Assembly: GCA_907163375.1 (NCBI GenBank)
Contig: CAJQUW010010397.1
Coordinates: 56,001 to 120,000 of the forward strand
Length of the DNA: 64,000 bases
Reading direction: 5' to 3'
Source of the DNA: Prostheceraeus crozeri
Taxonomy: Eukaryota > Platyhelminthes > Polycladida > Euryleptidae
Under the pieces are notes generated by a model that had not been told where the DNA came from, ran no database searches, and saw only the letters and a list, made by a program, of their open reading frames with translations. Shown piece by piece: positions 4,369-20,870 of the stretch. The position numbers and the translations under genes are program-made. Position 1 is the stretch's first letter; every line of letters starts with the position of its first letter.

Positions 4369-4374
4369 TGGCTA
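4369..4374. other. Left target-site duplication TGGCTA
   Basis: TGGCTA directly precedes the first base (AGTAGTAAGC) of the palindromic element and is repeated right after its last base at 20865-20870. Six-base duplications are what Maverick/Polinton integrases make. Confidence 0.9.
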
Positions 4375-4544
4375 AGTAGTAAGCAAGTGACAAACACCAG
4401 ATGGCGCAAGATGGCGGCCGTTTCCCACCCTACCCCTCCTCCTCTCTTCCTCCTCCTCCTCCCTGTCCTGGGGTGGTGTGCCGCCCGGGTGGGCTTGGGT
4501 GCCGGCCTTGTGGACGTGGTGTGCCGGCCTGGTGGACGTGGTGT

Positions 4545-5310
4545 CCATCGTCTTCCTCGTCAAAAATGGGCTCGACAAGTTTTTCCACCCCGGGGGGGGG
4601 GGGAGGAAATCCAATAAGCGAGTGCTACCATCGTCTTCCTCATCAAAAGTTGGATCGACAAGTTTTCCACCCCGGAGGGGGGGGATAGGGTGGGAGGAAA
4701 TCTAATGCGCGAGTGCTGCCATCGTCTTCCTCATCAAAAGTTAGATCGACAAGTTTTCCACCCCGGGGGGGGGGTAGGGTGGGAGGAAATCCAAAGTGTC
4801 GAATTTCGATGCGCCAGTGCTGCCATCGTCTTCCTCATCAAAAGTTAGATCGACAAGTTTTCCACCCCGGGGGGGGGGGTAGGGTGGGAGGAAATCCAAA
4901 GTGTCGAATTTCGATGCGCCAGTGCTACCATTGTCTTCCTCGTCAAAAGTTAGGTCGACAAGTTTTTCCCACCCTACCCCCCCCCGGGAGAGCTAGCTGC
5001 TATCTCGGCTTCTAGTGGACGGATTTTGTTCGTTCGGGTTGCATTCGAAAGAGGATAAAAAACTAACCTATGACATTTTTTGGCGCGAGTCAATCCGATC
5101 AGCCGTTCAAAAGTTAGAGCGGTTACAAGATTTTAGGAAAGGTTGAAAAAATCCTAAGTGTCAGAGTGACTGTGTACGGTAAAAATGAAAAATTTTTTCC
5201 AAAGTGTCGAATTTCGATGCGCCAGTGCTACCATCGTCTTTCTCGTCAAAAGTTGGATCGACAAGTTTTTCCCACCCTACCCCCCCCCCTCGGGAGAGCT
5301 TGCTTCAATT
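4545..5310 (+). repeat. G-rich minisatellite in the left terminus
   Basis: About six copies of a ~85-105 bp unit. Each has a CATCGTCTTCCTC core, then AAAAGTTNGATCGACAAGTTTT, then a CCACCCCGGGGGG run or its C-run variant (CCCACCCTACCCCCCCC). The last two copies are separated by ~280 bp of unique sequence. Copy number differs from the right arm (about six versus four). Reading frames across it are low-complexity and not credible genes. The G/C runs could form quadruplexes, which is inference. Confidence 0.8.
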
Positions 5311-5367
5311 TTGCCTTCCAGTGGTCGGATGGAGACATATGATAGCTCGTTTGAATGCTTATGATGA

Positions 5368-5511
5368 GACGAATTCAGTGGAGACCCATCTGAGTGTCTA
5401 CCATGTGCTCATACCGCTCTCTGTTCTTCATGTTATGCGACTTTGAAGACTAAACATTGCCCTTTGTGTTCTGAGGAAATCTATTCAACTGCCAAGGTCT
5501 ATCTCCCATGA
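5368..5511 (+). CDS. RING-finger-encoding segment without its own start codon (left arm)
   Basis: The frame opens after a TGA at 5365-5367 and runs to a TGA at 5509-5511. It encodes a compact RING C-terminal half with the pattern C-x2-C-x-H-x3-C-x2-C-x7-C-P-x2-C (ECLPCAHTALCSSC, then HCPLC). This is the zinc-binding pattern of C3HC4 RING ubiquitin ligases, similar in spacing to IAP-type RINGs. There is no ATG in frame, so it is either the last exon of a spliced gene or a leftover. It is unchanged in the right arm, which argues that the layout predates the palindrome. It lies just upstream of the promoter of the next gene. Confidence 0.55.
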   Translation, partial: DEFSGDPSECLPCAHTALCSSCYATLKTKHCPLCSEEIYSTAKVYLP

Positions 5512-5534
5512 TGGGAAACAACTTGATGCTATTG

Positions 5535-5612
5535 TCCAATGAGAGACGCCGTCCAATGAGAGTCCAGCATTTCATTATAAATAGAGAGCTTCCCACAGCG
5601 AGAATCATTCTA
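5535..5612 (+). promoter_or_regulatory. CCAAT/CCAAT/TATA promoter (left arm)
   Basis: Two copies of CCAATGAGAG (from 5536 and 5553) stand 17 bp apart, followed by TATAAATA at 5576-5583. Transcription would begin about 30 bp downstream, near 5610, about 70 bp before the ATG-only first exon. The same decamer pair and TATA spacing occurs at 51.67-51.71 kb. Confidence 0.8.
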
Positions 5613-5681
5613 TCATTGAATCGTACAAGTGACGGACGCACATTCTCTCTCTCTTGTTCCCTATTATATTACCTAACTAAA

Positions 5682-6456
5682 ATGGTAAGTCGCTATTTCC
5701 CTCCCTCTCCTCCCTTGAACGTAAACTTAATACAATCTTTTTCATTTTCAGGCATCTACTCCATCTGCTGCGCTAGTAGGACAAAATGGCGGTCAAACGT
5801 TACAAGGTTCGCTACGGTCAGATCATCTACAACTGAGGCCAGTGGAAGAAACAACCGAGGTACATAATCCTACACCGCTACAGCGTAAATTTAAACAAGT
5901 CTTGCGTTATGACGATCATAGCGTAGTACTCCAAACGGGAATGCTACCTTCCACGGATGTCAAGATAATGCGCAATCAGTATGGGGACTACATACTGATC
6001 CCCGTGAGTCTGTACATTCGCCACCAACTTGATATTATTGAGGAGTACGTGACATTAAATATGGACATTCCTACTCCTCTTACTCAAGAGTGGAAGGCTA
6101 GAGATGACAAGGATACTCCCTATAGAAAGATTTGGGATGGTAATCACATTTGCCTACCAGTATCACATTGGTGTACTTACTATAAGTTGGAGGGAGATCA
6201 TTCAATACCCATCAGATGTGATGAGCTCGGAGAAGGTACTTGGGATATCCTTTTCAAAGTGAATGGAGTATATTACGTTCGACATAAGGATAATAAAATA
6301 GTCTCTCTCTCCATGCATATGGAATCCATCCTATATATTCCAAAACCACCCAACGTGGATGACATAATTGATCAAATCCTTAACAGCAGTGGTACGAAGC
6401 GCAAGTCGGAGAAGAATGCTGCATCAAAACGCAAATCAAAGAAGGAGAATTACTAG
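5682..6456 (+). CDS. Spliced unknown gene with an ATG-only first coding exon (left arm)
   Basis: The open frame in 5752-6456 has no ATG near its start. Exactly upstream is ACTAAAATG followed by a consensus donor (GTAAGT at 5685) and, 67 bp on, a pyrimidine-rich acceptor (TTTTCAG ending 5751). Splicing joins the ATG (5682-5684) in phase to codon GCA at 5752 and gives a protein of about 235 residues. The middle contains a Trp/Cys/Gly-rich stretch (WDGNHICLPVSHW, then CDELGEGTWDILFKV) and the C-terminus is Lys/Arg/Ser-rich, like a nuclear localisation signal. I do not recognise the family with certainty. It is the first gene behind the CCAAT/TATA promoter, so an early or regulatory role is possible but unproven. 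Confidence 0.75.
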
Positions 6457-6490
6457 TCCTTTCCTAACTCTACCCTATGACAATTCGCTT

Positions 6491-6616
6491 ATGTGCTTTG
6501 TGTGTCGTAGAAGTGGTCTTATTAGATACATTTTACTTCTACGTTGCCATCATATCATTTGTGTATTTTGTCGTGAAAAGCATCGATGTAATTCTTCATT
6601 TTGTAATATGTTATAG
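6491..6616 (+). CDS. Small RING-like Cys/His ORF (left arm)
   Basis: A 41-residue frame from ATG 6491 encodes MCFVC...RCHHIICVFC...CNSSFC. The C-x2-C, then C-x-H-x2-C-x2-C and terminal Cys residues match a short treble-clef/RING-like zinc finger. It begins 35 bp after the upstream gene's stop and lies between it and the acceptor-like site at 6650. It may be an independent small protein or an exon. In the right arm two residues differ (Val to Glu, His to Pro) but all metal-ligand Cys residues and the second His remain. Confidence 0.45.
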   Translation: MCFVCRRSGLIRYILLLRCHHIICVFCREKHRCNSSFCNML

Positions 6617-6650
6617 AACGCTTCCTTAGATGTGTAAATTTCCGTTTTAG

Positions 6651-7199
6651 GCTTCTATCATCATTTTTATGGATTGTGAGGGTGAACCTGTACAGGAGCT
6701 CAGTGCTATTGCTATGAACAATTGGACATATCAGATTGTTAGTGTCTATCATCAACATGCCAACTGCGATCCCAATGTTGATCAATGGGGGAGAAAACAC
6801 ATTCATGGACTTAATCTGAAATATTTGCAAGACTATGGCTTTTCTTGTGAGAGTGCTCTTCTTATTGACTTTAAACGATGGTTAGCTGCTTTCAATATTA
6901 TACGCATCTTTTGTAATAATCCTTGTAAGGAGAGGAAAGTATTTCCCAATCTAATCATTGATGATATTTTGCTCCCGCCTTGGGATAGTAGAGTGAATCA
7001 ACATTATCATGAAGTCACGAAACGTTTTAAGGATTTGTGTGTTCCTATTTTGTCTGTTCGTTGTAGTAGCTACGTTCATAACCAATGCTTCTTTCCTCCT
7101 TACCTCAACACTGCCAAAGTCCTGTATGGTTATCATTGCTCGCTGTATGATAGTTACCAGCTGTATCTATTTTATCTCTTTCAAACCATTGATTTATAA
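6651..7199 (+). CDS. DnaQ-like DEDDh 3'-5' exonuclease (left arm)
   Basis: The product, 176 residues from ATG 6669, carries the ordered motifs of the DnaQ-like exonuclease superfamily: ExoI D-x-E (DCEG, residues 2-5) followed by a hydrophobic stretch, the IHGLN signature between ExoI and ExoII (45-49), an ExoII-like CNNPCKERK (82-90), and ExoIII H-x4-D (HCSLYD, 156-161). Such enzymes proofread or process 3' ends with two metal ions. An acceptor-like TTCCGTTTTAG ends at 6650, and the frame is open from 6651, adding six hydrophobic residues that complete the first beta strand. This suggests the true message is spliced to an upstream ATG rather than starting at 6669. The gene is open in both arms. 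Family-level function is well supported; its role in the element is inferred. Confidence 0.68.
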   Translation, partial: ASIIIFMDCEGEPVQELSAIAMNNWTYQIVSVYHQHANCDPNVDQWGRKHIHGLNLKYLQDYGFSCESALLIDFKRWLAAFNIIRIFCNNPCKERKVFPNLIIDDILLPPWDSRVNQHYHEVTKRFKDLCVPILSVRCSSYVHNQCFFPPYLNTAKVLYGYHCSLYDSYQLYLFYLFQTIDL

Positions 7200-7286
7200 T
7201 GCATGCTTGTTACCGTTATTCAATAAATGTTACTATGAGAAGAGTTGTTGTTTTCATGCAATGGATGGGTTAGATAAAGGCCGATC

Positions 7287-7430
7287 ATGTCTTTCTCAAA
7301 CGACTGCGGAACATTACATTTTCATAGGCAAAGTTTAAAAGGAGCTGTTCAAGATTATCAGATATAGCAGTCTAGTGATTGAAGCGATTTCAGATATTCA
7401 CATTCAACTTTCCATAAAGAAAAATTGAAA
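7287..7430 (+). pseudogene. Conserved ORF with a large internal deletion (left arm)
   Basis: This frame starts like the intact right-arm gene (MSFSNDCGTLHFHRQ) but after 24 codons a deletion of about 0.3 kb, with a few extra bases at the junction, brings in a stop near 7365. The 3' remnant (SSLVIEAISDIHIQ...) follows directly. Compare 17726-18136. Confidence 0.72.
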
Positions 7431-7757
7431 ATGCAGTGGTACTTGATTGTAGCACAACTGGTTTTCGAGCTATGTCTGCTCACTCTCGAAGTATATTCCT
7501 TCTGTACATGTGTCTATTATTTAGAAAAGGCTAGCAAATTCATATCTTCAAAAAGACTTGCTATAGACGTTACCAGTAACGGTGAAACTATGTGTTGTGA
7601 TGTATGTAAGCGAAAGGATGGAAATGAAAAGCGCATCTTCAAGAGATGTAAGCATGCTTTTTGTCAACGCTGTTTCATACGTAATTGCATTCAACTTTGC
7701 AAATGTAACCACTGTGACATTGCTCATTTCGAGTGTCACTTATGTCGCAATAGTTAG
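7431..7757 (+). CDS. Membrane-anchored RING-type zinc-finger protein (left arm)
   Basis: From ATG 7431 a 108-residue product is predicted. The first ~30 residues are hydrophobic (MQWYLIVAQLVFELCLLTLEV...), consistent with a signal anchor. The C-terminal half holds CCDVCKRKDG...FKRCKHAFCQRCFIRNC...CKCNHC...CHLC, that is C-x2-C, then C-x-H-x2-C-x2-C, then further Cys pairs, a RING or RING-variant arrangement. Viral proteins with this layout are often membrane-bound ubiquitin ligases that act on host proteins; that role is inference. The previous in-frame codon (TTG at 7425) is not needed as a start. The gene is open in both arms. Confidence 0.58.
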   Translation: MQWYLIVAQLVFELCLLTLEVYSFCTCVYYLEKASKFISSKRLAIDVTSNGETMCCDVCKRKDGNEKRIFKRCKHAFCQRCFIRNCIQLCKCNHCDIAHFECHLCRNS

Positions 7758-7808
7758 TACCTATGCAAATGTGGTAAAGATAGGTTTTAGCAAAGACTAA
7801 TACGGAAA

Positions 7809-8075
7809 ATGGCGAAACGTAAAATGGCGAAACGTAAAAAGTCTTCAAAGTTTTCTTCAGCCATTCAAGCTCTCCGACGAATGAAAGCAAATCAGCGATA
7901 CAATGCTATACGACATGCCAACGATAAATTCATTCGTGAAATTATTTCTCATGTCAGAAAGTTGAGGACGAAGAAATTAGCGCCAAAACAACGAAAGTTA
8001 CTTAAGCGATATGCTACGAAATTGCGTTTCATCTCCAATCCTAAAGTCACCCTTCAAAGAAAGAGGAAAACTTAA
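7809..8075 (+). CDS. Small basic virion-type protein (left arm)
   Basis: An 88-residue, strongly basic protein (about one third Lys/Arg) beginning MAKRKMAKRKKSSKF and ending with a basic tail (NPKVTLQRKRKT). The first five codons are a tandem duplication absent from the right arm. The central part is predicted helical (ANDKFIREIISHVRKLR) and leads into KLAPKQRKLLKRYATKLRFISNP. Short proteins of this type precede the ATPase gene in related invertebrate elements and are likely DNA-binding core proteins. Directly in frame after the TAA at 8073-8075 lies a 30-codon hydrophobic segment annotated separately. Confidence 0.68.
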   Translation: MAKRKMAKRKKSSKFSSAIQALRRMKANQRYNAIRHANDKFIREIISHVRKLRTKKLAPKQRKLLKRYATKLRFISNPKVTLQRKRKT

Positions 8076-8168
8076 ACACAAAAGGGCGGTTTCCTTTCAG
8101 CAATACTTCCAATGATAGCTCCTGCCGTGGGCAACCTATTGGGTAATATCTTTGGCTCTAAGCGTTAA
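8076..8168 (+). other. pX-like hydrophobic peptide in frame after the basic gene's stop (left arm)
   Basis: Thirty sense codons and a TAA follow the basic protein's stop in the same frame. They encode a Gly-Gly-led hydrophobic segment (GGFLSAILPMIAPAVGN) ending in GSKR. The GGF/hydrophobic pattern recalls the C-terminal part of adenovirus pX-type core proteins and the tails of basic proteins in related elements, where the two parts are one chain. The single TAA separates them here, identically in both arms. Possibilities are programmed readthrough, a fixed mutation before palindrome formation, or loss of function. There is an ATG within the peptide, but it is too late to include the motif. 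Confidence 0.5.
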
Positions 8169-8199
8169 TTATGCAAATGTTGAGTCTCAAAGTAATAAA

Positions 8200-8817
8200 A
8201 TGGATTTCAGACTTCAATGTGATAAAGTTCTGACTGTATCAGGTCCATCTCATGCAGGTAAAACTGTTTTCACGCTGAATTTATTGGATAAAAGAAGGGA
8301 GTTGTTTAAGGAACCTATCAATCGAGTGATTTGCTGTTATGGTATTTATCAACCGTCATTGTTTCAGGAATTGCAAAGTCGCAACTTTATTCGACATGAA
8401 GGAATTATTGCAGTGGATAAACTTCAGTCTAATGATGTTGTTGTATTGGATGATTTATTAAAAGAAAGTAAGAATTCAAAAGATGTTACAGATATGTTCA
8501 CTCGCGCAGCACATCATAAAAGGTGCTTTATCATCTATATCACACAAAATTTGTTTCCTGATGGAAAAGAAGCTCGTACACGAAACCTGAATACACACTA
8601 TTATGCTATTTTCAAGAATCCGCGAGATAAAAGTCAATTTGAAATTTTAGCGCGACAAGTTGCACCCAGAGGATCAAAAGCCTTAATTGAAATTTTTCAA
8701 GCAGCTACTGAAAAACCATACGGTTACTTATTCATTGACTTTACGCAAGAGTGTCCGGAAGAATTTAGATTTCGAAGTGATATTTTGAAAACTCCCATGA
8801 TTATCTACAAACTATGA
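8200..8817 (+). CDS. P-loop packaging-type ATPase (left arm)
   Basis: A 205-residue product from ATG 8200, chosen because the frame upstream of it overlaps the preceding peptide. Walker A is GPSHAGKT (residues 15-22). Walker B is VVVLDD (80-85), and a following strand ends in YITQN (113-117), matching the sensor position of FtsK/HerA-type and A32-like packaging ATPases. In viruses of this lineage the enzyme drives DNA into the capsid. It is shorter than many A32-like proteins (~250 residues) but contains the whole P-loop core. Its stop overlaps the next gene's start (ATGA, 8814-8817), implying tight co-expression. The two arms differ at four residues or so (for example CCYGIY versus WCYGIY). 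Confidence 0.82.
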   Translation: MDFRLQCDKVLTVSGPSHAGKTVFTLNLLDKRRELFKEPINRVICCYGIYQPSLFQELQSRNFIRHEGIIAVDKLQSNDVVVLDDLLKESKNSKDVTDMFTRAAHHKRCFIIYITQNLFPDGKEARTRNLNTHYYAIFKNPRDKSQFEILARQVAPRGSKALIEIFQAATEKPYGYLFIDFTQECPEEFRFRSDILKTPMIIYKL

Positions 8818-9488
8818 GTTCTTATTCTCGCATGATTGTTATTCCTCAGGATGAATATGTACAATTGACTGCCATGCAGCAAGTAAAGCAACCTCTTGCA
8901 AATCAAATGTATAGGAAAGAAATAGATTATCAGCAAAATGTTCACATCAAAGATCCACATCGTGCTGTATTATTACAATCGGAAACTGTTGAGCAATTGA
9001 AAAACTTGAAGAATAAGATGCGTGACTCTGTATCGACTGCTACACCTTTAGCATCTCGCGCACATGCCATATCTCTTTTCAACAGTATTGAACCCCATCT
9101 CAATGTAAATAATAGAGCAGAAATCATTACAGATGAAAATAAAGTGATTGATGCTTCACGTTATGAAGACTTGATTCAGTATGCGACACGTAGAAAGCGC
9201 CGTCAGGGCTATGTTCCACCTGGTTGGACATACTTTCTTAAACTATTGAAAAAGCATAATGTGCCAAAATTTGCTTTGAATAATGAGACATTGAAAGAAC
9301 TTGATTCAACAGTGGCTACTGCTCCAATGCTTCAGACGATGAAAATGCCAACAAATTGGTTTAAGACGTCACCTGCTACATCCCCTCTCACACTCACTAA
9401 GCAAACAAGAGGAAGAACTCGACGTAGATCTACATCGCCACTAAAACTAGTAAAAGGAAAACGTAAAACAGCTCCTCCCAGGAAATAA
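8814..9488 (+). CDS. Unknown virion-associated-type protein with basic tail (left arm)
   Basis: A 224-residue protein that starts inside the ATPase stop (ATGA overlap). Residues 1-110 are predicted helical and hydrophilic. A conserved-looking block around 138-160 reads GYVPPGWTYFLKLLKKHNVP, and the last ~35 residues are very basic and Ser/Thr-rich (RGRTRRRSTSP, KGKRKTAPPRK), suggesting DNA binding or nuclear localisation. Proteins with a PxGW...F...LKK..NVP block sit next to the ATPase in related invertebrate elements. I cannot assign a function. The right-arm copy has a substitution in the stop codon that adds six residues. Confidence 0.62.
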   Translation: MSSYSRMIVIPQDEYVQLTAMQQVKQPLANQMYRKEIDYQQNVHIKDPHRAVLLQSETVEQLKNLKNKMRDSVSTATPLASRAHAISLFNSIEPHLNVNNRAEIITDENKVIDASRYEDLIQYATRRKRRQGYVPPGWTYFLKLLKKHNVPKFALNNETLKELDSTVATAPMLQTMKMPTNWFKTSPATSPLTLTKQTRGRTRRRSTSPLKLVKGKRKTAPPRK

Positions 9489-9507
9489 TTGTTCTCAGAC
9501 TATTAAT

Positions 9508-9723
9508 ATGAAGCAGATGTGTTGCTTGCCATGTAATGAGCCGCCAGAGGTGAATGTCGTTGTCACTTGCACTTGCTGCGCCAGCTCTCATAATGAAACC
9601 CCTAAGCAATGTGAAAACGATCGCAAAACCGCTAAAGCTAAATGCTGCAGTTGTTGTAAATGTAGAAAGGCAAGAAAACAAAAAGATGAGAAGGAGGAAA
9701 AAGAGTCAGTCGTCATCGACTGA
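9508..9723 (+). CDS. Cys-rich small protein overlapping the integrase start (left arm)
   Basis: A 71-residue frame from ATG 9508 with 13 Cys, many paired (MKQMCCLPC, CTCCASS, CCSCCKCRK), then an acidic/Lys-rich tail (KDEKEEKESVVID). This looks like a metal-binding peptide. It lies 19 bp after the previous gene and overlaps the likely integrase start (ATG 9686) in another frame by 38 bp. It is identical in the right arm. No family is recognised. Its placement between two credible genes, Cys density and own ATG make it a plausible real gene. Confidence 0.45.
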   Translation: MKQMCCLPCNEPPEVNVVVTCTCCASSHNETPKQCENDRKTAKAKCCSCCKCRKARKQKDEKEEKESVVID

Positions 9724-10774
9724 ACGTTTGAAGTCAATCTATTATGATGTAAAACATCCGGCAGGATTTGCATCTATCAAGAAATTATCAAAAGCGAGTG
9801 GTCTTCCACAATCACAAGTGAAACGATGGTTAAAGGGTCAGGCTACCTATACACTCCACAAACAAGCGAAAAAGAAGTACCGCACCCTCCATTATATTGT
9901 TCATGACATCGATGAACAGTGGCAAGCAGATTTGTGCGATGTCGCCTCCATTTCAAAACATAACTCGGGCAATAATTTTATTTTAACCGTCATTGATATT
10001 TTCTCGCGTTATGCGTGGGCTCAACCTTTAAAAACTAAAGAAGGGAAAGGAGTAGCAAAAGCATTCCAAACAATTTTTCGAGAAGGTCGGATTCCAAAAA
10101 GAATTCAGAGTGATCAAGGAAAAGAGTTTGAAAATCAGCATGTGAGAAGATTATTTGAGAGGCATGATATTCAGTTGTTTAGTGTAAAGAGTGCTTATAA
10201 AGCTGCACTCGTTGAACGTTTTAATCGCACATTAAAAAATCGCTTGTGGAGACATTTTATTGCCAACTTGACACAAAATTGGACAAAGGTTCTACAAGAT
10301 ACACTCCATGCCTACAATCACTCTATCCATCGTTCTATTGGACTCAGACCAGTAGATGTAAATGCTGACAATGTAGATAAAGTGCGCGAATCATTCCAAC
10401 GTAAACGCACTCATGTGAAAAGTGATGTGAAAATTGGCGATAAAGTTCGTATCTCAAAAGTGAAAAGTGTTTTTGCTAAAGGGTACCTTCCGAATTGGAC
10501 AGAGGAGGTATTTACAGTATCAAGGATTAATCAAAAAGACTCTCCGACCACCTACAAGTTGAAAGATTACGATAATGAAGAAATTGAGGGTAGCTTTTAC
10601 CGCGATGAGATTGAGGTAGTCACTGAAAGTGAAACATATTTGGTAGAGAAAATCATTCGATGTAAAAAACGGCAAGGTGAAGAATGGTGTCTTGTTAAAT
10701 GGACTGGTTATCCTTCAAGTATGAACTCTTGGATGCGTCGTGCCGACATCTTTCATCTAAGTGATCGACAGTGA
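9686..10774 (+). CDS. Retroviral-type integrase with C-terminal chromodomain (left arm, intact)
   Basis: From ATG 9686 the product is 362 residues; the frame is open back to 9554, but that part overlaps the Cys-rich ORF. It belongs to the F54H12.3-type integrases of Mavericks and relatives. Residues 10-65 form a conserved N-terminal region (ERLKSIYYD, HPAGFAS, YTLHKQAKKKY). The rve core has catalytic Asp82 (QADLCD), Asp143 (QSDQGKEF) and Glu177 (ALVERFNRTLKNRL). Residues ~215-300 form an SH3-like/linker region, and residues ~308-350 are a chromodomain (VEKIIRCKKRQ...WCLVKWTGYPSSMNSW). It joins element ends to chromosomal DNA and produces 6 bp duplications, as seen at this insertion. The chromodomain probably directs it to marked chromatin. 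Confidence 0.93.
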   Translation: MRRRKKSQSSSTERLKSIYYDVKHPAGFASIKKLSKASGLPQSQVKRWLKGQATYTLHKQAKKKYRTLHYIVHDIDEQWQADLCDVASISKHNSGNNFILTVIDIFSRYAWAQPLKTKEGKGVAKAFQTIFREGRIPKRIQSDQGKEFENQHVRRLFERHDIQLFSVKSAYKAALVERFNRTLKNRLWRHFIANLTQNWTKVLQDTLHAYNHSIHRSIGLRPVDVNADNVDKVRESFQRKRTHVKSDVKIGDKVRISKVKSVFAKGYLPNWTEEVFTVSRINQKDSPTTYKLKDYDNEEIEGSFYRDEIEVVTESETYLVEKIIRCKKRQGEEWCLVKWTGYPSSMNSWMRRADIFHLSDRQ

Positions 10775-10815
10775 TTCATGCAAAGTTGTAACTAACAATG
10801 TTTAGGGTTTGAGCT

Positions 10816-11271
10816 ATGAATCCAACTGCCTCATTTTATTCACGACCCTCCTATGTAAGTGGTGGAGGACAAATTTACATCGGCGCTCGCCGTCAACGTG
10901 GAGGTAGCATACTTGGTGCACTGAAATCTGTTGTAGCACCTCTCATATCTAATGTCGGTAGATCTTTAAAACGAAATGTTTTAAGTAATGCCGTTGGCTT
11001 TGCTGGTGATGTTGCTAGTGATCTTTCCAGAGGTAGAAGTTTTAAGAGCAGTTTGTTGAATCGTGGGAAGGAACGCGGTTTAAAAACATTGAAGCAGACT
11101 TTCGCTGGTGTTACTCAAGGAAAGAAATCACCTAAACGAATGAATAAAGGAAGGAGGAAACATCGCGGAGCTGGTAAGGTGCGATCTTCAGTCAAAAGGC
11201 ATTCACGCAAACGTCGTAGAGGCTCTAATCATTCATCAGGTGCTAAACGACGACGCTGCTATAACTTCTAA
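10816..11271 (+). CDS. Basic minor-capsid-like protein with amphipathic segment (left arm)
   Basis: A 151-residue protein ending 2 bp before the capsid gene. The N-terminus (MNPTASFYSRPSYVSGGGQ) leads to a GGSILGALKSVVAPLI stretch that can form an amphipathic helix. A region with Arg/Lys and small residues follows (SDLSRGRSFKSSLLNRG), and the last ~45 residues are extremely basic (KRHSRKRRRGS..., KRRRCYNF). The order of Gly-led amphipathic segment then basic tail, directly upstream of the capsid gene, resembles adenovirus-lineage minor capsid/core proteins (pVI/pX-like) that bind membrane or DNA. The assignment rests on composition and context. It is identical in the right arm. Confidence 0.68.
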   Translation: MNPTASFYSRPSYVSGGGQIYIGARRQRGGSILGALKSVVAPLISNVGRSLKRNVLSNAVGFAGDVASDLSRGRSFKSSLLNRGKERGLKTLKQTFAGVTQGKKSPKRMNKGRRKHRGAGKVRSSVKRHSRKRRRGSNHSSGAKRRRCYNF

Positions 11272-11273
11272 TC

Positions 11274-12587
11274 ATGGAGTGTAAAACTTCCGGTTTTTGT
11301 TTGTTCGATCAACAAGCCATACAGACAGATATTCTTAGTTCAAGTATTGTAGATTATCATCCTCGAACAGCTGAGAATGCTGGCCCCATTGAATTTGTTA
11401 TTCCTGGTGGTAGTGATGACTACATAGATTTGAGTTATGCGATGCTTGATTTGAGGTTTAGAATTCAGCAAGCAGATGGAACTGCTATTGACGATGCACA
11501 TAAAGTTGGACTGAACAATTTACCATTGACTACATTACTTCGCGATGTTTCTCTAACGATTGGAGAGCAGCAGGTGGAAGGTGGTCAAAGTGATTATCCC
11601 TATAAATCATATTTCAATCATGTATCACAGTTTCATCCTGCAGCACAAAAAAGTCATATGGAAGCCATGGGATGGTACAGAGATGAAGCAGGAAAATTTG
11701 ATGTTGAAACAAACAGTGGCTTTGTAAAGCGATCTGCTATGATTAAAGATAGTAGAGTATGTCAGCTATATGTTCCGCTGAATTTAGACTTCTTTAGACA
11801 GTCAAAGTTTTTACTCTGTAGCACCAGCATGCGACTCAAGCTGACATTGAATAAGCCTGAATTTGCGCTGAATGCATTTGCTAAAGTTGACAATTTTAGA
11901 ATTCATGTGGAAGATATTGCACTTTACATTCGTCGAGTAGTACCGAATCCAAGTGTCATTAGAGGGCATGCTGAAGGCCTTAACCGCCAAAATGCCATTT
12001 ACCCCGTTCAGCATACAAAGCTTCTCACCTTTACAATTCCGAAAGATCAAAAGAGTTTCATGAAAGATGATGGCCTCTTTCCATCGGAAGCACCGAAGCT
12101 CCTCATGGTGGCAATGGTTGAAAATGATGCATTTAATGGTAATATAAAGAAGAATCCTTTCAATTTTAAACACAATCAGTTAAGTGAAATTGCTTTACGT
12201 GTGAATGGTGTGAGTCATCCTGGTCCACCCTACAAACCAGATTTTGCTTCGGATCAATTTATGCGCAGTTATGTTGATTTTATGGATGTCTTTGGCTTTT
12301 ACAATACAGATGACACCAACGGACTGACTATGAAAGAGTTTAAGAGTGGATATACTATTTATGCATTTGATTTGACTGCTGACAGCGATATTAGTTCACC
12401 CTATCGTCAAGCGAACGTGCCTCATAATATTCGTTTGGATTTGACGTTCAAAAGAACACTACCTGAGACGATCAATGTATTAATTTATGCAGTCTTCGAT
12501 TCAAATATTGAAATTACAAAGTATCGAGTGAATAGACATTATCGAAAGATTTCAACGTCGCTTCGTCTGCATTACGCTGCACTTTAG
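11274..12587 (+). CDS. F54H12.2-like predicted major capsid protein, C-terminus altered by the palindrome (left arm)
   Basis: The 437-residue frame matches the F54H12.2-like family that accompanies F54H12.3-type integrases in invertebrate virus-like elements. Diagnostic blocks are IEFVIPGGSDDYIDLS (N-terminal), YPYKSYFNHV, the VENDAFNGN...KNPFNFKH stretch, GYTIYAFDLT, and NVLIYAVFDSNIEITKYR near the end. All-beta predicted structure and position after a minor-capsid-like gene suggest a double jelly-roll major capsid protein; that fold is inferred, not seen. The arm boundary at 12526 cuts the gene just after ITKYR, and the last ~20 residues come from spacer sequence read on the wrong strand. 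It has one Asp more than the right copy (KDDGLF versus KDGLF). Confidence 0.85.
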   Translation: MECKTSGFCLFDQQAIQTDILSSSIVDYHPRTAENAGPIEFVIPGGSDDYIDLSYAMLDLRFRIQQADGTAIDDAHKVGLNNLPLTTLLRDVSLTIGEQQVEGGQSDYPYKSYFNHVSQFHPAAQKSHMEAMGWYRDEAGKFDVETNSGFVKRSAMIKDSRVCQLYVPLNLDFFRQSKFLLCSTSMRLKLTLNKPEFALNAFAKVDNFRIHVEDIALYIRRVVPNPSVIRGHAEGLNRQNAIYPVQHTKLLTFTIPKDQKSFMKDDGLFPSEAPKLLMVAMVENDAFNGNIKKNPFNFKHNQLSEIALRVNGVSHPGPPYKPDFASDQFMRSYVDFMDVFGFYNTDDTNGLTMKEFKSGYTIYAFDLTADSDISSPYRQANVPHNIRLDLTFKRTLPETINVLIYAVFDSNIEITKYRVNRHYRKISTSLRLHYAAL

Positions 12588-12618
12588 TCTTAATATCGTC
12601 AGCAGTCAACCAACTCAT
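12514..12618 (-). pseudogene. Start of the gene downstream of the capsid, cut by the fold-back
   Basis: From ATG 12618 on the minus strand about 30 codons (MSWLTADDIKTKVQRN...) are native before the fold-back junction at 12527; four more codons and a stop then come from the inverted capsid sequence. The close spacing to the capsid stop (11 bp) matches the compact gene layout elsewhere in the element. The product is unknown. It shows that the parental genome had at least one further gene here. Confidence 0.65.
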
Positions 12619-13895: not shown

Positions 13896-13897
13896 GA

Positions 13898-14353
13898 TTA
13901 GAAGTTATAGCAGCGTCGTCGTTTAGCACCTGATGAATGATTAGAGCCTCTACGACGTTTGCGTGAATGCCTTTTGACTGAAGATCGCACCTTACCAGCT
14001 CCGCGATGTTTCCTCCTTCCTTTATTCATTCGTTTAGGTGATTTCTTTCCTTGAGTAACACCAGCAAAGGTCTGCTTCAATGTTTTTAAACCGCGTTCCT
14101 TCCCACGATTCAACAAACTGCTCTTAAAACTTCTACCTCTGGAAAGATCACTAGCAACATCACCAGCAAAGCCAACGGCATTACTTAAAACATTTCGTTT
14201 TAAAGATCTACCGACATTAGATATGAGAGGTGCTACAACAGATTTCAGTGCACCAAGTATGCTACCTCCACGTTGACGGCGAGCGCCGATGTAAATTTGT
14301 CCTCCACCACTTACATAGGAGGGTCGTGAATAAAATGAGGCAGTTGGATTCAT
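13898..14353 (-). CDS. Basic minor-capsid-like protein (right arm)
   Basis: Inverted copy of 10816-11271, same 151 residues, again ending 2 bp before the capsid gene. Confidence 0.68.
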   Translation of the reverse strand: MNPTASFYSRPSYVSGGGQIYIGARRQRGGSILGALKSVVAPLISNVGRSLKRNVLSNAVGFAGDVASDLSRGRSFKSSLLNRGKERGLKTLKQTFAGVTQGKKSPKRMNKGRRKHRGAGKVRSSVKRHSRKRRRGSNHSSGAKRRRCYNF

Positions 14354-14394
14354 AGCTCAAACCCTAAACATTGTTAGTTACAACTTTGCATGAA

Positions 14395-15483
14395 TCACTG
14401 TCGATCACTTAGATGAAAGATGTCGGCACGACGCATCCAAGAGTTCATACTTGAAGGATAACCAGTCCATTTAACAAGACACCATTCTTCACCTTGCCGT
14501 TTTTTACATCGAATGATTTTCTCTACCAAATATGTTTCACTTTCAGTGACTACCTCAATCTCATCGCGGTAAAAGCTACCCTCAATTTCTTCATTATCGT
14601 AATCTTTCAACTTGTAGGTGGTCGGAGAGTCTTTTTGATTAATCCTTGATACTGTAAATACCTCCTCTGTCCAATTCGGAAGGTACCCTTTAGCAAAAAC
14701 ACTTTTCACTTTTGAGATACGAACTTTATCGCCAATTTTCACATCACTTTTCACATGAGTGCGTTTACGTTGGAATGATTCGCGCACTTTATCTACATTG
14801 TCAGCATTTACATCTACTGGTCTGAGTCCAATAGAACGATGGATAGAGTGATTGTAGGCATGGAGTGTATCTTGTAGAACCTTTGTCCAATTTTGTGTCA
14901 AGTTGGCAATAAAATGTCGCCACAAGCGATTTTTTAATGTGCGATTAAAACGTTCAACGAGTGCAGCTTTATAAGCACTCTTTACACTAAACAACTCAAT
15001 GTCATGCCTCTCAAATAATCTTCTCACATGCTGATTTTCAAACTCTTTTCTTTGATCACTCTGAATTCTTTTTGGAATCCGACCTTCTCGAAAAAATTGT
15101 TTGGAATGCTTTTGCTACTCCTTTCCCTTCTTTAGTTTTTAAAGGTTGAGCCCACGCATAACGCGAGAAAATATCAATGACGGTTAAAATAAAATTATTG
15201 CCCGAGTTATGTTTTGAAATGGAGGCGACATCGCACAAATCTGCTTGCCCTTTTCATCGATGTCATGAACAATATAATGGCGGGTGCGGTACTTCTTTTT
15301 CGCTTGTTTGTGGAGTGTATAGGTAGCCTGACCCTTTAACCATCGTTTCACTTGTGATTGTGGAAGACCACTCGCTTTTGATAATTTCTTGATAGATGCA
15401 AATCCTGCCGGATGTTTTACATCATAATAGATTGACTTCAAACGTTCAGTCGATGACGACTGACTCTTTTTCCTCCTTCTCAT
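14395..15483 (-). pseudogene. Integrase with chromodomain, two frameshifts (right arm)
   Basis: Inverted counterpart of 9686-10774, broken into three frames. A 1 bp loss near 15250 disrupts the frame just before the first catalytic Asp, and a 1 bp gain in a T run near 15095 disrupts it again before the second. The remaining C-terminal part (14395-15027) retains Glu and the chromodomain. It also has Arg for Gly in the SDQGKEF motif. The copy is inactive. Confidence 0.9.
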
Positions 15484-15661
15484 CTTTTTGTTTTCTTGCC
15501 TTTCTACATTTACAACAACTGCAGCATTTAGCTTTAGCGGTTTTGCGATCGTTTTCACATTGCTTAGGGGTTTCATTATGAGAGCTGGCGCAGCAAGTGC
15601 AAGTGACAACGACATTCACCTCTGGCGGCTCATTACATGGCAAGCAACACATCTGCTTCAT
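15446..15661 (-). CDS. Cys-rich small protein (right arm)
   Basis: Inverted copy of 9508-9723, same 71 residues, still open although the overlapping integrase gene is frameshifted here. Confidence 0.44.
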   Translation of the reverse strand: MKQMCCLPCNEPPEVNVVVTCTCCASSHNETPKQCENDRKTAKAKCCSCCKCRKARKQKDEKEEKESVVID

Positions 15662-15662
15662 A

Positions 15663-16355
15663 TTAATAGTCTGAGAACAAGTATTTCCTGGGAGGAGCTG
15701 TTTTACGTTTTCCTTTTACTAGTTTTAGTGGCGATGTAGATCTACGTCGAGTTCTTCCTCTTGTTTGCTTAGTGAGTGTGAGAGGGGATGTAGCAGGTGA
15801 CGTCTTAAACCAATTTGTTGGCATTTTCATCGTCTGAAGCATTGGAGCAGTAGCCACTGTTGAATCAAGTTCTTTCAATGTCTCATTATTCAAAGCAAAT
15901 TTTGGCACATTATGCTTTTTCAATAGTTTAAGAAAGTATGTCCAACCAGGTGGAACATAGCCCTGACGGCGCTTTCTACGTGTCGCATACTGAATCAAGT
16001 CTTCATAACGTGAAGCATCAATCACTTTATTTTCATCTGTAATGATTTCTGCTCTATTATTTACATTGAGATGGGGTTCAATACTGTTGAAAAGAGATAT
16101 GGCATGTGCGCGAGATGCTAAAGGTGTAGCAGTCGATACAGAGTCACGCATCTTATTCTTCAAGTTTTTCAATTGCTCAACAGTTTCCGATTGTAATAAT
16201 ACAGCACGATGTGGATCTTTGATGTGAACATTTTGCTGATAATCTATTTCTTTCCTATACATTTGATTTGCAAGAGGTTGCTTTACTTGCTGCATGGCAG
16301 TCAATTGTACATATTCATCCTGAGGAATAACAATCATGCGAGAATAAGAACTCAT
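15663..16355 (-). CDS. Unknown virion-associated-type protein with basic tail (right arm)
   Basis: Inverted copy of 8814-9488. The stop (TAA in the left arm) reads TAC here, extending the product to 230 residues ending YLFSDY, up to two bases before the next ORF's start. Otherwise the frame matches. Confidence 0.62.
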   Translation of the reverse strand: MSSYSRMIVIPQDEYVQLTAMQQVKQPLANQMYRKEIDYQQNVHIKDPHRAVLLQSETVEQLKNLKNKMRDSVSTATPLASRAHAISLFNSIEPHLNVNNRAEIITDENKVIDASRYEDLIQYATRRKRRQGYVPPGWTYFLKLLKKHNVPKFALNNETLKELDSTVATAPMLQTMKMPTNWFKTSPATSPLTLTKQTRGRTRRRSTSPLKLVKGKRKTAPPRKYLFSDY

Positions 16356-16969
16356 AGTTTGTAGATAATCATGGGAGTTTTCAAAATATCACTTCGAAAT
16401 CTAAATTCTTCCGGACACTCTTGCGTAAAGTCAATGAATAAGTAACCGTATGGTTTTTCAGTAGCTGCTTGAAAAATTTCAATTAAGGCTTTTGATCCTC
16501 TGGGTGCAACTTGTCGCGCTAAAATTTCAAATTGACTTTTATCTCGCGGATTCTTGAAAATAGCATAATAGTGTGTATTCAGGTTTCGTGTACGAGCTTC
16601 TTTTCCATCAGGAAACAAATTTTGTGTGATATAGATGATAAAGCACCTTTTATGATGTGCTGCGCGAGTGAACATATCTGTAACATCTTTTGAATTCTTA
16701 CTTTCTTTTAATAAATCATCCAATACAACAACATCATTAAACTGAAGTTTATTCACTGCAATAATTCCTTCATGTCGAATAAAGTTGCGATTTTGCAATT
16801 CCTGAAACAATGACGGTTGATAAATACCATAACACCAAATCACTCGATTGATAGGTTCCTTAAACAACTCCCTTCTTTTATCCAATAAATTCAGCGTGAA
16901 AACAGTTTTACCTGCATGAGATGGACCTGATACAGTCAGAACTTTATCACATTGAAGTCTGAAATCCAT
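16352..16969 (-). CDS. P-loop packaging-type ATPase (right arm)
   Basis: Inverted copy of 8200-8817, intact, with GPSHAGKT and VVVLDD retained. Substitutions relative to the left arm include Cys to Trp before CYGIY, Ser to Asn in LQNRNF, and AVNKLQF for AVDKLQS. The ATGA overlap with the next gene is conserved. Confidence 0.82.
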   Translation of the reverse strand: MDFRLQCDKVLTVSGPSHAGKTVFTLNLLDKRRELFKEPINRVIWCYGIYQPSLFQELQNRNFIRHEGIIAVNKLQFNDVVVLDDLLKESKNSKDVTDMFTRAAHHKRCFIIYITQNLFPDGKEARTRNLNTHYYAIFKNPRDKSQFEILARQVAPRGSKALIEIFQAATEKPYGYLFIDFTQECPEEFRFRSDILKTPMIIYKL

Positions 16970-17000
16970 TTTATTACTTTGAGACTCAACATTTGCATAA

Positions 17001-17093
17001 TTAACGCTTAGAGCCAAAGATATTACCCAATAGGTTGCCCACGGCAGGAGCTATCATTGGAAGTATTGCTGAAAGGAAACCGCCCTTTTGTGT
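17001..17093 (-). other. pX-like hydrophobic peptide after the stop (right arm)
   Basis: Inverted copy of 8076-8168, with the same frame, the same separating stop and the same Gly-Gly-led hydrophobic segment. Confidence 0.5.
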
Positions 17094-17345
17094 TTAAGTT
17101 TTCCTCTTTCTTTGAAGGGTGACTTTAGGATTGGAGATGAAACGCAATTTCGTAGCATATCGCTTAAGTAACTTTCGTTGTTTTGGCGCTAATTTCTTCG
17201 TCCTCAACTTTCTGACATGAGAAATAATTTCACGAATGAATTTATCGTTGGCATGTCGTATAGCATTGTATCGCTGATTTGCTTTCATTCGTCGGAGAGC
17301 TTGAATGGCTGAAGAAAACTTTGAAGACTTTTTACGTTTCGCCAT
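17094..17345 (-). CDS. Small basic virion-type protein (right arm)
   Basis: Inverted copy, 83 residues, starting MAKRKKSSKF without the five-codon duplication of the left arm. The rest is the same, and it is followed in frame by the same hydrophobic segment. Confidence 0.68.
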   Translation of the reverse strand: MAKRKKSSKFSSAIQALRRMKANQRYNAIRHANDKFIREIISHVRKLRTKKLAPKQRKLLKRYATKLRFISNPKVTLQRKRKT

Positions 17346-17396
17346 TTTCCGTATTAGTCTTTGCTAAAACCTATCTTTACCACATTTGCATAGGTA

Positions 17397-17723
17397 CTAA
17401 CTATTGCGACATAAGTGATACTCGAAATGAGCAATGTCACAGTGGTTACATTTGCAAAGTTGAATGCAATTACGTATGAAACAGCGTTGACAAAAAGCGT
17501 GCTTACATCTCTTGAAGATGCGCTTTTCATTTCCATCCTTTCGCTTACATACATCACAACACATAGTTTCACCGTTACTGGTAACGTCTATAGCAAGTCT
17601 TTTTGAAGATATGAATTTGCTAGCCTTTTCTAAATAATAGACACATGTACAGAAGGAATATACTTCGAGAGTGAGCAGACATAGCTCGAAAACCAGTTGT
17701 GCTACAATCAAGTACCACTGCAT
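17397..17723 (-). CDS. Membrane-anchored RING-type zinc-finger protein (right arm)
   Basis: Inverted copy of 7431-7757 with the same hydrophobic N-terminus and Cys/His pattern. It differs by at least one residue near the end (FEYHLC versus FECHLC), which alters a Cys that may not be a ligand. Confidence 0.57.
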   Translation of the reverse strand: MQWYLIVAQLVFELCLLTLEVYSFCTCVYYLEKASKFISSKRLAIDVTSNGETMCCDVCKRKDGNEKRIFKRCKHAFCQRCFIRNCIQLCKCNHCDIAHFEYHLCRNS

Positions 17724-17725
17724 TT

Positions 17726-18136
17726 TCAATTTTTCTTTATGGAAAGTTGAATGTGAATATCTGAAATCGCTTCAATCACTAGACTGCTACCATGATGGTT
17801 GAATGCGTTAAGACGTTCAGCAATTATTATCATATGTCTTTTAAAAAATTCTTGGGGGTGATCTACCACTTCCATTGAATAAGAAGCAAAATGGAAAGAG
17901 CGACTTTCCACCTCTTCCTTTCCAAAATGACTAAACTTAATTTTCGCAACTAATCGCGCCATGATAATGCTATCAGAGAATGTATTCATTAACTCTAGAA
18001 ATAGAGTGCTAGCATCATCGACCACTGCTTCGATGTCGGTCTCATCTTTATGAAAATTTATCACATAATCTTGAACAGCTCCTTTTAAACTTTGCCTATG
18101 AAAATGTAATGTTCCGCAGTCTTTTGAGAAAGACAT
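17726..18136 (-). CDS. Conserved element ORF of unknown function (right arm, intact)
   Basis: An intact 136-residue protein, acidic in the middle and predicted mixed alpha/beta. It starts MSFSKDCGTLHFHRQSL and ends SDIHIQLSIKKN. Recognisable blocks are LHFHRQ near the N-terminus, MARLVAKIKF in the middle, FHFASYSMEVVDHPQEFFKRHM, and a C-terminal NAFNHHGSSLVIEAI. I recognise this pattern from ORFs that accompany F54H12.2-like capsid genes in invertebrate genomes, but I know no assigned function. The ATG at 18134-18136 is the only plausible start. It overlaps no other gene and precedes the membrane/RING ORF. Confidence 0.6.
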   Translation of the reverse strand: MSFSKDCGTLHFHRQSLKGAVQDYVINFHKDETDIEAVVDDASTLFLELMNTFSDSIIMARLVAKIKFSHFGKEEVESRSFHFASYSMEVVDHPQEFFKRHMIIIAERLNAFNHHGSSLVIEAISDIHIQLSIKKN

Positions 18137-18223
18137 GATCGGCCTTTATCTAACCCATCCATTGCATGAAAACAACAACTCTTCTCATAGTAACATTTAT
18201 TGAATAACGGTAACAAGCATGCA

Positions 18224-18772
18224 TTATAAATCAATGGTTTGAAAGAGATAAAATAGATACAGCTGGTAACTATCATACAGCGAGCAATGATAACCATACA
18301 GGACTTTGGCAGTGTTGAGGTAAGGAGGAAAGAAGCATTGGTTATGAACGTAGCTACTACAACGAATAGACAAAATAGGAACACACAAATCCTTAAAACG
18401 TTTCGTGACTTCATGATAATGTTGATTCACTCTACTATCCCAAGGCGGGAGCAAAATATCATCAATGATTAGATTGGGAAATACTTTCCTCTCCTTACCA
18501 GGATTATTACAAAAGATGCGTATAATATTGAAAGCAGCTAACCATCGTTTAAAGTCAATAAGAAGAGCACTCTCACACGAAAAGTCATAGTCTTGCAAAT
18601 ATTTCAGATTAAGTCCATGAATGTGTTTTCTCCCCCATTGATCAACATTGGGATCGCAGTTGGCATGTTGATGATAGACACTAACAATCTGATATGTCCA
18701 ATTGTTCATAGCAATAGCACTGAGCTCCTGTACAGGTTCACCCTCACAATCCATAAAAATGATGATAGAAGC
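18224..18772 (-). CDS. DnaQ-like DEDDh 3'-5' exonuclease (right arm)
   Basis: Inverted copy of 6651-7199, with ATG at 18752-18754 and an open frame back to an acceptor-like site at 18773. DCEG, IHGLN and H-x4-D are retained. Differences include CNNPGKERK in place of CNNPCKERK and YDFSCES in place of YGFSCES. Confidence 0.67.
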   Translation of the reverse strand, partial: ASIIIFMDCEGEPVQELSAIAMNNWTYQIVSVYHQHANCDPNVDQWGRKHIHGLNLKYLQDYDFSCESALLIDFKRWLAAFNIIRIFCNNPGKERKVFPNLIIDDILLPPWDSRVNQHYHEVTKRFKDLCVPILSIRCSSYVHNQCFFPPYLNTAKVLYGYHCSLYDSYQLYLFYLFQTIDL

Positions 18773-18806
18773 CTAAAACGGAAATTTACACATCTAAGGA
18801 AGCGTT

Positions 18807-18932
18807 CTATAACATATTACAAAATGAAGAATTACATCGATGCTTTTCACGACAAAATACACAAATGATATGAGGGCAACGAAGAAGTAAAATGTATCTA
18901 ATAAGACCACTTCTACGACACTCAAAGCACAT
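18807..18932 (-). CDS. Small RING-like Cys/His ORF (right arm)
   Basis: Inverted copy of 6491-6616, starting MCFEC and retaining C-x-H-x2-C-x2-C (RCPHIICVFC). The first His of the left copy is Pro here, so the second His is the likelier ligand. Confidence 0.44.
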   Translation of the reverse strand: MCFECRRSGLIRYILLLRCPHIICVFCREKHRCNSSFCNML

Positions 18933-18966
18933 AAGCGAATTGTCATAGGGTAGAGTTAGGAAAGGA

Positions 18967-19741
18967 CTAGTAATTCTCCTTCTTTGATTTGCGTTTTGAT
19001 GCAGCATTCTTCTCCGACTTGCGCTTCGTACCACTGCTGTTAAGGATTTGATCAATTATGTCATCCACGTTGGGTGGTTTTGGAATATATAGGATGGATT
19101 CCATATGCATGGAGAGAGAGACTATTTTATTATCCTTATGTCGAACGTAATATACTCCATTCACTTTGAAAAGGATATCCCAAGTACCTTCTCCGAGCTC
19201 ATCACATCTGATGGGTATTGAATGATCTCCCTCCAACTTATAGTAAGTACACCAATGTGATACTGGTAGGCAAATGTGATTACCATCCCAAATCTTTCTA
19301 TAGGGAGTATCCTTGTCATCTCTAGCCTTCCACTCTTGAGTAAGAGGAGTAGGAATGTCCATATTTAATGTCACGTACTCCTCAATAATATCAAGTTGGT
19401 GGCGAATGTACGGACTCACGGGGATCAGTATGTAGTCCCCATACTGATTGCGCATTATCTTGACATCCGTGGAAGGTAGCATTCCCGTTTGGAGTACTAC
19501 GCTATGATCGTCATAACGCAAGACTTGTTTAAATTTACGCTGTAGCGGTGTAGGATTATGTACCTCGGTTGTTTCTTCCACTGGCCTCAGTTGTAGATGA
19601 TCTGACCGTAGCGAACCTTGTAACGTTTGACCGCCATTTTGTCCTACTAGCGCAGCAGATGGAGTAGATGCCTGAAAATGAAAAAGATTGTATTAAGTTT
19701 ACGTTCAAGGGAGGAGAGGGAGGGAAATAGCGACTTACCAT
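18967..19741 (-). CDS. Spliced unknown gene with an ATG-only first coding exon (right arm)
   Basis: Inverted copy of 5682-6456. ATG at 19739-19741, intron 19672-19738 (67 bp, GT-AG), second exon 18967-19671. It differs from the left copy by at least one residue (VSP versus VSL near residue 85 of the product) and is otherwise open. Conservation of both splice sites and frame in both arms supports the gene model. Confidence 0.74.
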
Positions 19742-19837
19742 TTTAGTTAGGTAATATAATAAGGAACAAGAGAGAGAGAATGTGCGTCCGTCACTTGTAC
19801 GATTCAATGATAGAATGATTCTCGCTGTGGGAAGCTC

Positions 19838-19890
19838 TCTATTTATAATGAAATGCTGGACTCTCATTGGACGGCGTCTCTCATTGGACA
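19838..19890 (-). promoter_or_regulatory. CCAAT/CCAAT/TATA promoter (right arm)
   Basis: Inverted copy: TATAAATA at 19840-19847 on the minus strand with two CCAAT boxes at 19866-19870 and 19883-19887. Confidence 0.8.
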
Positions 19891-19911
19891 ATAGCATCAA
19901 GTTGTTTCCCA

Positions 19912-20055
19912 TCATGGGAGATAGACCTTGGCAGTTGAATAGATTTCCTCAGAACACAAAGGGCAATGTTTAGTCTTCAAAGTCGCATAACATGAAGAAC
20001 AGAGAGCGGTATGAGCACATGGTAGACACTCAGATGGGTCTCCACTGAATTCGTC
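19912..20055 (-). CDS. RING-finger-encoding segment (right arm)
   Basis: Inverted copy of the 5368-5511 segment, with the same in-frame upstream stop (20056-20058) and the same C-x2-C-x-H-x3-C-x2-C...CPLC spacing. No start codon is visible. Confidence 0.53.
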   Translation of the reverse strand, partial: DEFSGDPSECLPCAHTALCSSCYATLKTKHCPLCSEEIYSTAKVYLP

Positions 20056-20104
20056 TCATCATAAGCTTTCGAACGAGCTATCATATGTCTCCATCCGACC
20101 ACTG

Positions 20105-20715
20105 GAAGGCAAAATTGAAGCAAGCTCTCCCGAGGGGGGGGTAGGGTGGGAAAAACTTGTCGATCCAACTTTTGACGAGAAAGACGATGGTAGCACTGGC
20201 GCATCGAAATTCGACACTTTGGAAAAAATTTTTCATTTTTACCGTACACAGTCACTCTGACACTTAGGATTTTTTCAACCTTTCCTAAAATCTTGTAACC
20301 GCTCTAACTTTTGAACGGCTGATCGGATTGACTCGCGCCAAAAAATGTCATAGGTTAGTTTTTCATCCTCTTTCGAATGCAACCCGAACGAACAAAATCC
20401 GTCACTAGAAGCCGAGATAGCAGCTAGCTCTCCCGGGGAGGTAGGGTGGGAAAAACTTGTCGACCTAACTTTTGACGAGGAAGACGATGGTAGCACTGGC
20501 GCATCGAATTTCGACACTTTGGATTTCCTCCCACTCTACCCCCCCGGGGTGGAAAACTTGTCGATCTAACTTTTGATGAGGAAGACGATGGCAGCACTGG
20601 CGCATCGAAATTCGACACTTTGGATTTCCTCCCACCCTACCCCCCCCCGGGGTGGAAAAACTTGTCGAGCCCATTTTTGACGAGGAAGACGATGGACACC
20701 ACGTTCACCAGGCCG
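20105..20715 (-). repeat. G-rich minisatellite in the right terminus
   Basis: Inverted counterpart of the left-terminus minisatellite with about four units (GAGGAAGACGATGG cores near 20477, 20578 and 20678, and a GAGAAAGACGATGG variant near 20178). Confidence 0.78.
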
Positions 20716-20864
20716 GCACACCACGTCCACCAGGCCGGCCCCCAAGCCCACCCGGGCGGCACAACACCCCAGGACAGGGAGGGGAGGAGGAAGAGAGGAG
20801 GGGGGGTAGGGTGGGAAACGGCCGCCATCTTGCGCTATCTGGTGTTTGTCACTTGCTTACTACT

Positions 20865-20870
20865 TGGCTA
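20865..20870. other. Right target-site duplication TGGCTA
   Basis: Direct repeat of 4369-4374, immediately after the terminal GCTTACTACT of the element. Confidence 0.9.

Follow-up and report, generated by a model that had tools for sequence, protein, structure and literature searches.

Palindromic defective adenovirus genomes consist of an inverted duplication of one genome end; they arise from a linear DNA virus and are not known to be inserted by a viral integrase. Adeno-associated virus (AAV) makes both symmetric and asymmetric (looped) snapback genomes (PMC8235507). Among viruses that do integrate, vertebrate Mavericks are marked by AGTAGT//ACTACT ends with 6-bp target-site duplications (PMC8097293), and adintoviruses have been defined by a PolB with an OTU-like domain together with a hexon recognisable by BLASTp (PMC11071296). 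Here we describe a Maverick/Polinton-type element of 16,490 bp (4375–20864) in a 64,000-nt stretch of the genome of the flatworm Prostheceraeus crozeri, called the window below and the reference for all coordinates given without a contig name. Two inverted arms surround an asymmetric centre of 119 nt, and the element is probably a snap-back dimer of the integrase-side half of a virus genome, inserted in one step by the integrase.

The element shares with vertebrate Mavericks/Polintons, as described in PMC8097293, the AGTAGT//ACTACT ends, the 6-bp duplications, an rve integrase and a double-jelly-roll capsid protein, and full-length copies in the flatworm genome appear by homology to hold a PolB relative. 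It differs in being an inverted dimer of one half without the polymerase half, and its full-length relatives additionally carry TATA-binding protein (TBP) and endonuclease VII domains. An rve integrase with a C-terminal chromodomain is shared with meldviruses and adintoviruses, and the capsid model matches a MELD virus protein, among many others, whereas palindromic forms are not described in the available part of PMC11071296. The likeness to AAV snapback genomes (PMC8235507) lies in the self-complementary half genomes and in the occurrence of symmetric and looped kinds. The AAV forms, however, are packaged and belong to a parvovirus with inverted terminal repeats at its ends, whereas the present ones are integrated, have target duplications and derive from a virus with an integrase. 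Snap-back genomes are already known from AAV and adenoviruses, and the integrated palindromic form of a Maverick/Polinton appears to be new as far as the literature was searched: no palindromic or inverted-dimer Maverick/Polinton was found described among titles and abstract openings, mostly in partial result lists.

Structure of the Palindrome

Two inverted arms of 8.2 kb with the same outer termini had been reported in the original prediction. The palindrome was recovered, with the arm lengths corrected to 8,152 and 8,219 bp and a 119-nt spacer placed between them, and the terminal motif does begin at 4375 and, inverted, at 20864 (Table 1). The seven longest inverted blocks (I1–I7, 158–2,103 nt) show 98–100% complementarity, and additional blocks at 85–99% extend to 4368 and 20871; compared by blastn, the arms agree at 99.2% over 5,163 columns and at 98.7% over 2,647 columns. 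For an inverted repeat of 8 kb, chance need not be considered. The arms are nevertheless not identical, since 32 substitutions and four small indels (1–15 nt) separate them in the compared part, and 269 nt of the right arm, across which single copies are colinear with that arm, are missing from the left. The outer ~1 kb of each arm contains tandem repeats whose unit number differs between left and right. The centre is colinear with the sequence that follows the capsid gene in single copies and therefore belongs to the right arm.

Abundant and similar copies of an element can mislead assemblers, so the palindrome might be suspected to be a fold-back read or a collapsed repeat. A fold-back would have inverted the host flank also, whereas the two flanks differ and the element stops exactly at the duplication. 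The substitutions and the 269-nt deletion between the arms likewise speak against an artefact, as does the occurrence of the same form at three loci with different duplications (see below), and this explanation can hardly be credited at all.

Insertion as a Single Unit

The sequence TGGCTA lies directly outside each tip in direct orientation, as had been claimed, and neither host flank of the window is an inverted copy of the other (best match 20 nt). Using both flanks joined by one TGGCTA as a query, 21 places were found, 17 of which cross the window site and lack the element. Both flanks of the window itself, together with a place on contig C2319 that falls into two parts ~10 bp away from the site, account for the remaining four. 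In each of four fetched places among the 17 a single 6-mer stands at the site (TGGCTA in three, TGGCTC in one). The insertion lies inside a host repeat family and, because the unoccupied paralogous sites carry a single 6-mer, all 16,490 bp of the palindrome came in as one piece, accompanied by a 6-bp duplication. The proposal of one insertion of a preformed palindrome is borne out by the single duplication and by these unoccupied places; both a duplication of host flank together with the arms and an assembly fold-back, either of which would have spoken against the proposal, are contradicted as far as can be judged from the assembled genome.

The palindrome is not unique, and at least two more dimers are present in the same genome, which therefore preserves traces of faulty viral DNA copies. 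The second lies on contig C4044 from 41056 to 69241 (with 41068–43199 not read) and has GATGTA outside both ends, and the third lies on C2097 from 100445 to 121638 with the duplication ACGGGC; the three differ both in their centres and in their 6-bp duplications. For C2097, a joined-flank query was crossed without the element at 38 of 40 scored places (the best 40 of 2,392 candidates), the other two being its own flanks; these matches have 80–87% identity and mostly start ~20 bp left of the junction. Both C2097 arms contain an insertion of ~1.4 kb at the same position. The window and C2097 pairs were found among 40 capsid matches and the C4044 pair among the best 40 of 267 junction candidates; since both samples were picked by similarity to the window, no dimer frequency can be derived from them.

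Two side observations concern contig C4044. In the left arm of its palindrome (L061, L062; C4044:43200–46700) a 485-bp subterminal unit forms a long satellite-like array, far longer than that of the right arm, and a third copy on the contig (C4044:24520, L022) differs from the palindrome arms at 2–3 of 1,351 positions.

Copies of the family are very numerous (one integrase 24-mer has 5,209 exact matches, 2,540 + 2,669, in the 2.05-Gb genome), so nearby pairs do occur, such as those on C2050, C3908 and C184. Such abundance gives some ground for two separate insertions, or for one insertion that was later duplicated and inverted in the chromosome. This is highly improbable: a single direct 6-bp duplication spans the outer ends in all three resolved palindromes, unoccupied paralogous sites exist for two of them (window and C2097), the host flanks of the window are not inverted, and the arms of the palindromes are sisters.

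Other paired copies were not counted as palindromes. The pair on C184 (166998+/180481−) was the sole tail-to-tail pair closer than 35 kb noticed by eye among 100 listed 24-mer places. Its left copy continues into 464 bp of the other half, followed by 2.5 kb and then by the other half of the right copy, and the 2.5-kb stretch had no megablast match to the window or to the full-length copy L043. The C184 arms show 4 differences in 1,351 positions, the right arm being slightly closer to another copy (3), and no terminal motif was found in the fetched stretches, of which the right-hand one runs to the contig end; a fourth palindrome was for these reasons not confirmed. The two C2050 copies are not sisters (92 differences) and were rejected as a dimer. 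On C3908, copies at 69759 and 77871 (L023, L024) form a direct tandem with a period of 8,112 bp and zero branch length between them in the capsid tree; at their joint an outer arm meets part of the polymerase half, an arrangement resembling a tandem duplication or a head-to-tail concatemer.

Relationship Between the Arms

The arms of all three palindromes are, on sequence comparison, each other's nearest relatives among the compared copies. Over 6,670 gap-free columns, alleles found in exactly two rows number 33 for the window arms, 18 for the C4044 arms and 18 for the C2097 arms, and any other pair shares at most four. This set holds the six dimer arms and only three other copies, with the pieces kept apart; of the eight main pieces, two have no C2097 rows and one lacks a C2050 row, and the final 46 columns represent the window right arm only. 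Differences from arm to arm amount to 29, 27 and 7 (the last over fewer columns), compared with 49–129 between elements, and those private to one window arm number 17 on the left and 10 on the right. In two larger comparisons of 33 and 15 rows, which use shorter pieces and include 29 and 9 rows that are not dimer arms, every dimer included (C2097 only in the second) again has its two arms as nearest neighbours, with FastTree local support of 0.928–0.993. The low divergence suggests that the dimers are young relative to the spread of the family, though exchange between arms may also account for it.

Single copies of the family extend past the position of the centre. The 40 capsid matches that were scored, the window's two included, have 97–100% identity over at least 725 of 727 query bases, and the single copies L041, L042, L043 and L051 extend beyond the capsid gene through almost the entire 9.9 kb fetched. 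One of these four, on C4177, has its terminal motif 14.3 kb beyond the capsid end, so that a full copy would measure ~22–23 kb, the integrase-side end of this copy lying outside the fetched stretch. Since the arms are sisters and single copies continue past the centre, the palindrome is best read as one genome end present twice, not as the result of a later duplication, in agreement with the original claim.

Two further observations concern the copies of the family. The 24-mer count indicates a very large expansion and, if most copies have at least 8 kb, the family would occupy at least 2% of the genome (arithmetic only). In L027 (C3050) the terminal motif stands ~600 bp past the capsid gene (2243–2269), which makes it an internally deleted, non-palindromic copy.

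Centres and Origin of the Dimer

Among the 46 rows aligned across the window junction, some of which come from other dimers or are repeated, overlapping fetches of a single place, 44 read AAGGTATCG, one differs and the last, the window itself, reads AAAGTATCG; of the best 40 of 267 candidate places, none but the window junction matches over the full length. As the end of the capsid gene supplies GTATCG, the window has at its centre an inverted microhomology of 6 bp and a loop of 119 nt. At the C4044 centre, with the allele of its own arm, TGCGGCT is joined to AGCCGCA (7 bp) with a loop of ~45 nt, counted by eye. Microhomology is thus present at two of the three centres; the C2097 centre is not informative, and microhomology is not clear there. 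In 200,000 trials with random fold-back pairs, matches of at least 6 bp occurred in 409 and of at least 7 bp in 152.

The process that would lead to such a structure begins with a Maverick/Polinton-type virus genome that is copied outside the chromosome. A nascent or displaced strand, held at the integrase-side end, may bend back where a short inverted microhomology lies immediately beyond the capsid gene and prime its own copying. The product would be a linear, mirror-image dimer that lacks the polymerase half and carries the integrase-side end on either tip. To the integrase these two identical ends would look like a normal pair, and the dimer would enter a host repeat with one 6-bp duplication, the necessary enzymes presumably being supplied in trans by a full-length relative. 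The defective or replicative snap-back form that had been proposed is supported, by inference, by the microhomology centres and by two further palindromes with duplications of their own.

Several points weigh against a snap-back origin. No extrachromosomal form was seen in the assembled genome, and an IMG/VR search with the capsid alignment found no relative. The 7-bp match at C4044 requires an allele present in one of six other copies read (L042), the remaining five differing at one or two of its positions, and more changes lie near that centre. The near-identical third copy on the C4044 contig means that local duplication may have contributed there. The C2097 centre, whose loop measures ~2.75 kb and which contains AT-rich filler of ~90 bp, is less like a simple snap-back.

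The main rival departs from the snap-back dimer only in how the dimer was formed: end-joining through microhomology, outside the chromosome, could have linked two broken sister integrase-side halves tail to tail before they were inserted as a unit. Joining of two broken sister genomes through 6–7 bp of microhomology would give the same product, and the sister arms, the single duplication and the short microhomology that it predicts are all seen; the filler and long loop of C2097 suit it well. At two of the three centres, on the other hand, the paired breakpoints fall within 119 and ~45 nt of each other, which makes independent breaks unlikely (by rough arithmetic for a ~22-kb genome), and end-joining is accordingly regarded as an unlikely origin compared with snap-back copying.

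The replication of Maverick/Polinton-type viruses has largely been inferred from sequence. Dimers that are integrated, each between target duplications of its own, are heritable, datable records of aberrant replication products, and with thousands of copies in one genome the rate of dimers and the positions of their centres can be counted. A testable suggestion about end pairing also follows from them, namely that two copies of the same (integrase-side) end can be brought together by the integrase. It could further be imagined, as a quite doubtful extension, that Maverick-type viruses regularly make snap-back dimers of the integrase half, as AAV does, that these are inserted as readily as normal genomes and that they serve the host as built-in hairpins. 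With both capsid genes pointing towards the centre, transcription that reads through it would yield long double-stranded RNA, which could in that case feed small-RNA silencing of the virus, and defective genomes would be preserved in the host genome both as a fossil record and as the material of a defence.

Genes and Classification

The element, for which an adenovirus-lineage linear DNA had been proposed in the original prediction, is more precisely of the Maverick/Polinton type, as judged by its AGTAGT/ACTACT ends, 6-bp duplication, chromodomain integrase and double-jelly-roll capsid protein. Its features are listed in Table 1.

Table 1. Coordinates of the palindrome, its repeats and its open reading frames (ORFs) in the window.
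Feature	Coordinates	Strand	Remarks
Left target-site duplication	4369..4374	+	TGGCTA
Left arm	4375..12526	+	8,152 bp; integrase-side half genome, ends near 3' end of capsid gene
Terminal motif	4375..4384	+	AGTAGTAAGC
Subterminal tandem repeats, left	4514..5286	+	D1, D2
ATPase-like ORF	8152..8817	+	weak matches: AAA_14 E 0.014, Pox_A32 E 0.017, both below curated cut-offs
ORF without assigned function	8814..9488	+	224 aa
Integrase	9554..10774	+	406 aa; rve core 6.6e-11 and chromodomain 5.9e-07, both above Pfam cut-offs
Small basic ORF	10816..11271	+	151 aa
Major capsid protein ORF, left	11274..12587	+	C-terminus replaced by centre sequence after 12526
Inverted microhomology at junction	12521..12526	+	GTATCG, 6 bp (8 of 9 counting 12518–12526)
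Centre (loop)	12527..12645	-	119 nt; in single copies the colinear sequence follows the capsid gene
Major capsid protein ORF, right arm	12630..13895	-	421 aa; predicted double jelly-roll fold
Right arm	12646..20864	-	8,219 bp; same half genome as left arm, inverted
Small basic ORF, right-arm copy	13898..14353	-	
Integrase, right arm	14395..15615	-	broken; two shorter ORFs, 210 and 143 aa
ATPase-like ORF, right-arm copy	16352..17017	-	221 aa
Stretch missing from left arm	17790..18058	-	269 nt; missing at 7364/7365
Subterminal tandem repeats, right	20144..20695	-	D3, D4; fewer units
Terminal motif, inverted	20855..20864	-	AGTAGTAAGC
Right target-site duplication	20865..20870	+	TGGCTA

The capsid protein belongs to a family of ~425 aa with 288 homologues, relatives being mostly 424–427 aa long. 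The AlphaFold model of the right-arm protein (predicted local distance difference test, pLDDT, 84) matched capsid proteins of iridovirus, PBCV-1 and Sputnik in Foldseek with E-values of 5e-17 to 1e-16; virophage and giant-virus capsid proteins are among the matches, and the MELD virus protein stands at rank 10. For a minor capsid protein or an adenovirus-type protease no Pfam match was obtained in the scanned ORFs, no dedicated search having been made.

The second half of the full-length copies, which the palindrome lacks, contains TBP and an endonuclease VII-type ORF. The TBP domain was located at L043:8801–9505 (+) with an E-value of 2.2e-20, and its presence is unexpected for a Maverick-type element. 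The 886-aa ORF of L043 matches only endonuclease VII in Pfam and itself has no PF03175 match; PF03175 (PolB) was found in 14 of 120 listed homologues (615 found). Compared with PDB sequences, the 886- and 476-aa ORFs gave nothing at E-values up to 1.

Outside the element, direct repeats spaced ~1.05–1.07 kb apart (families D5, D6, D8 and D9) lie just to its left at 1929–3256, and two ORFs with Tc3-type transposase DNA-binding domains were found at 31168–31779 and 45600–46211.

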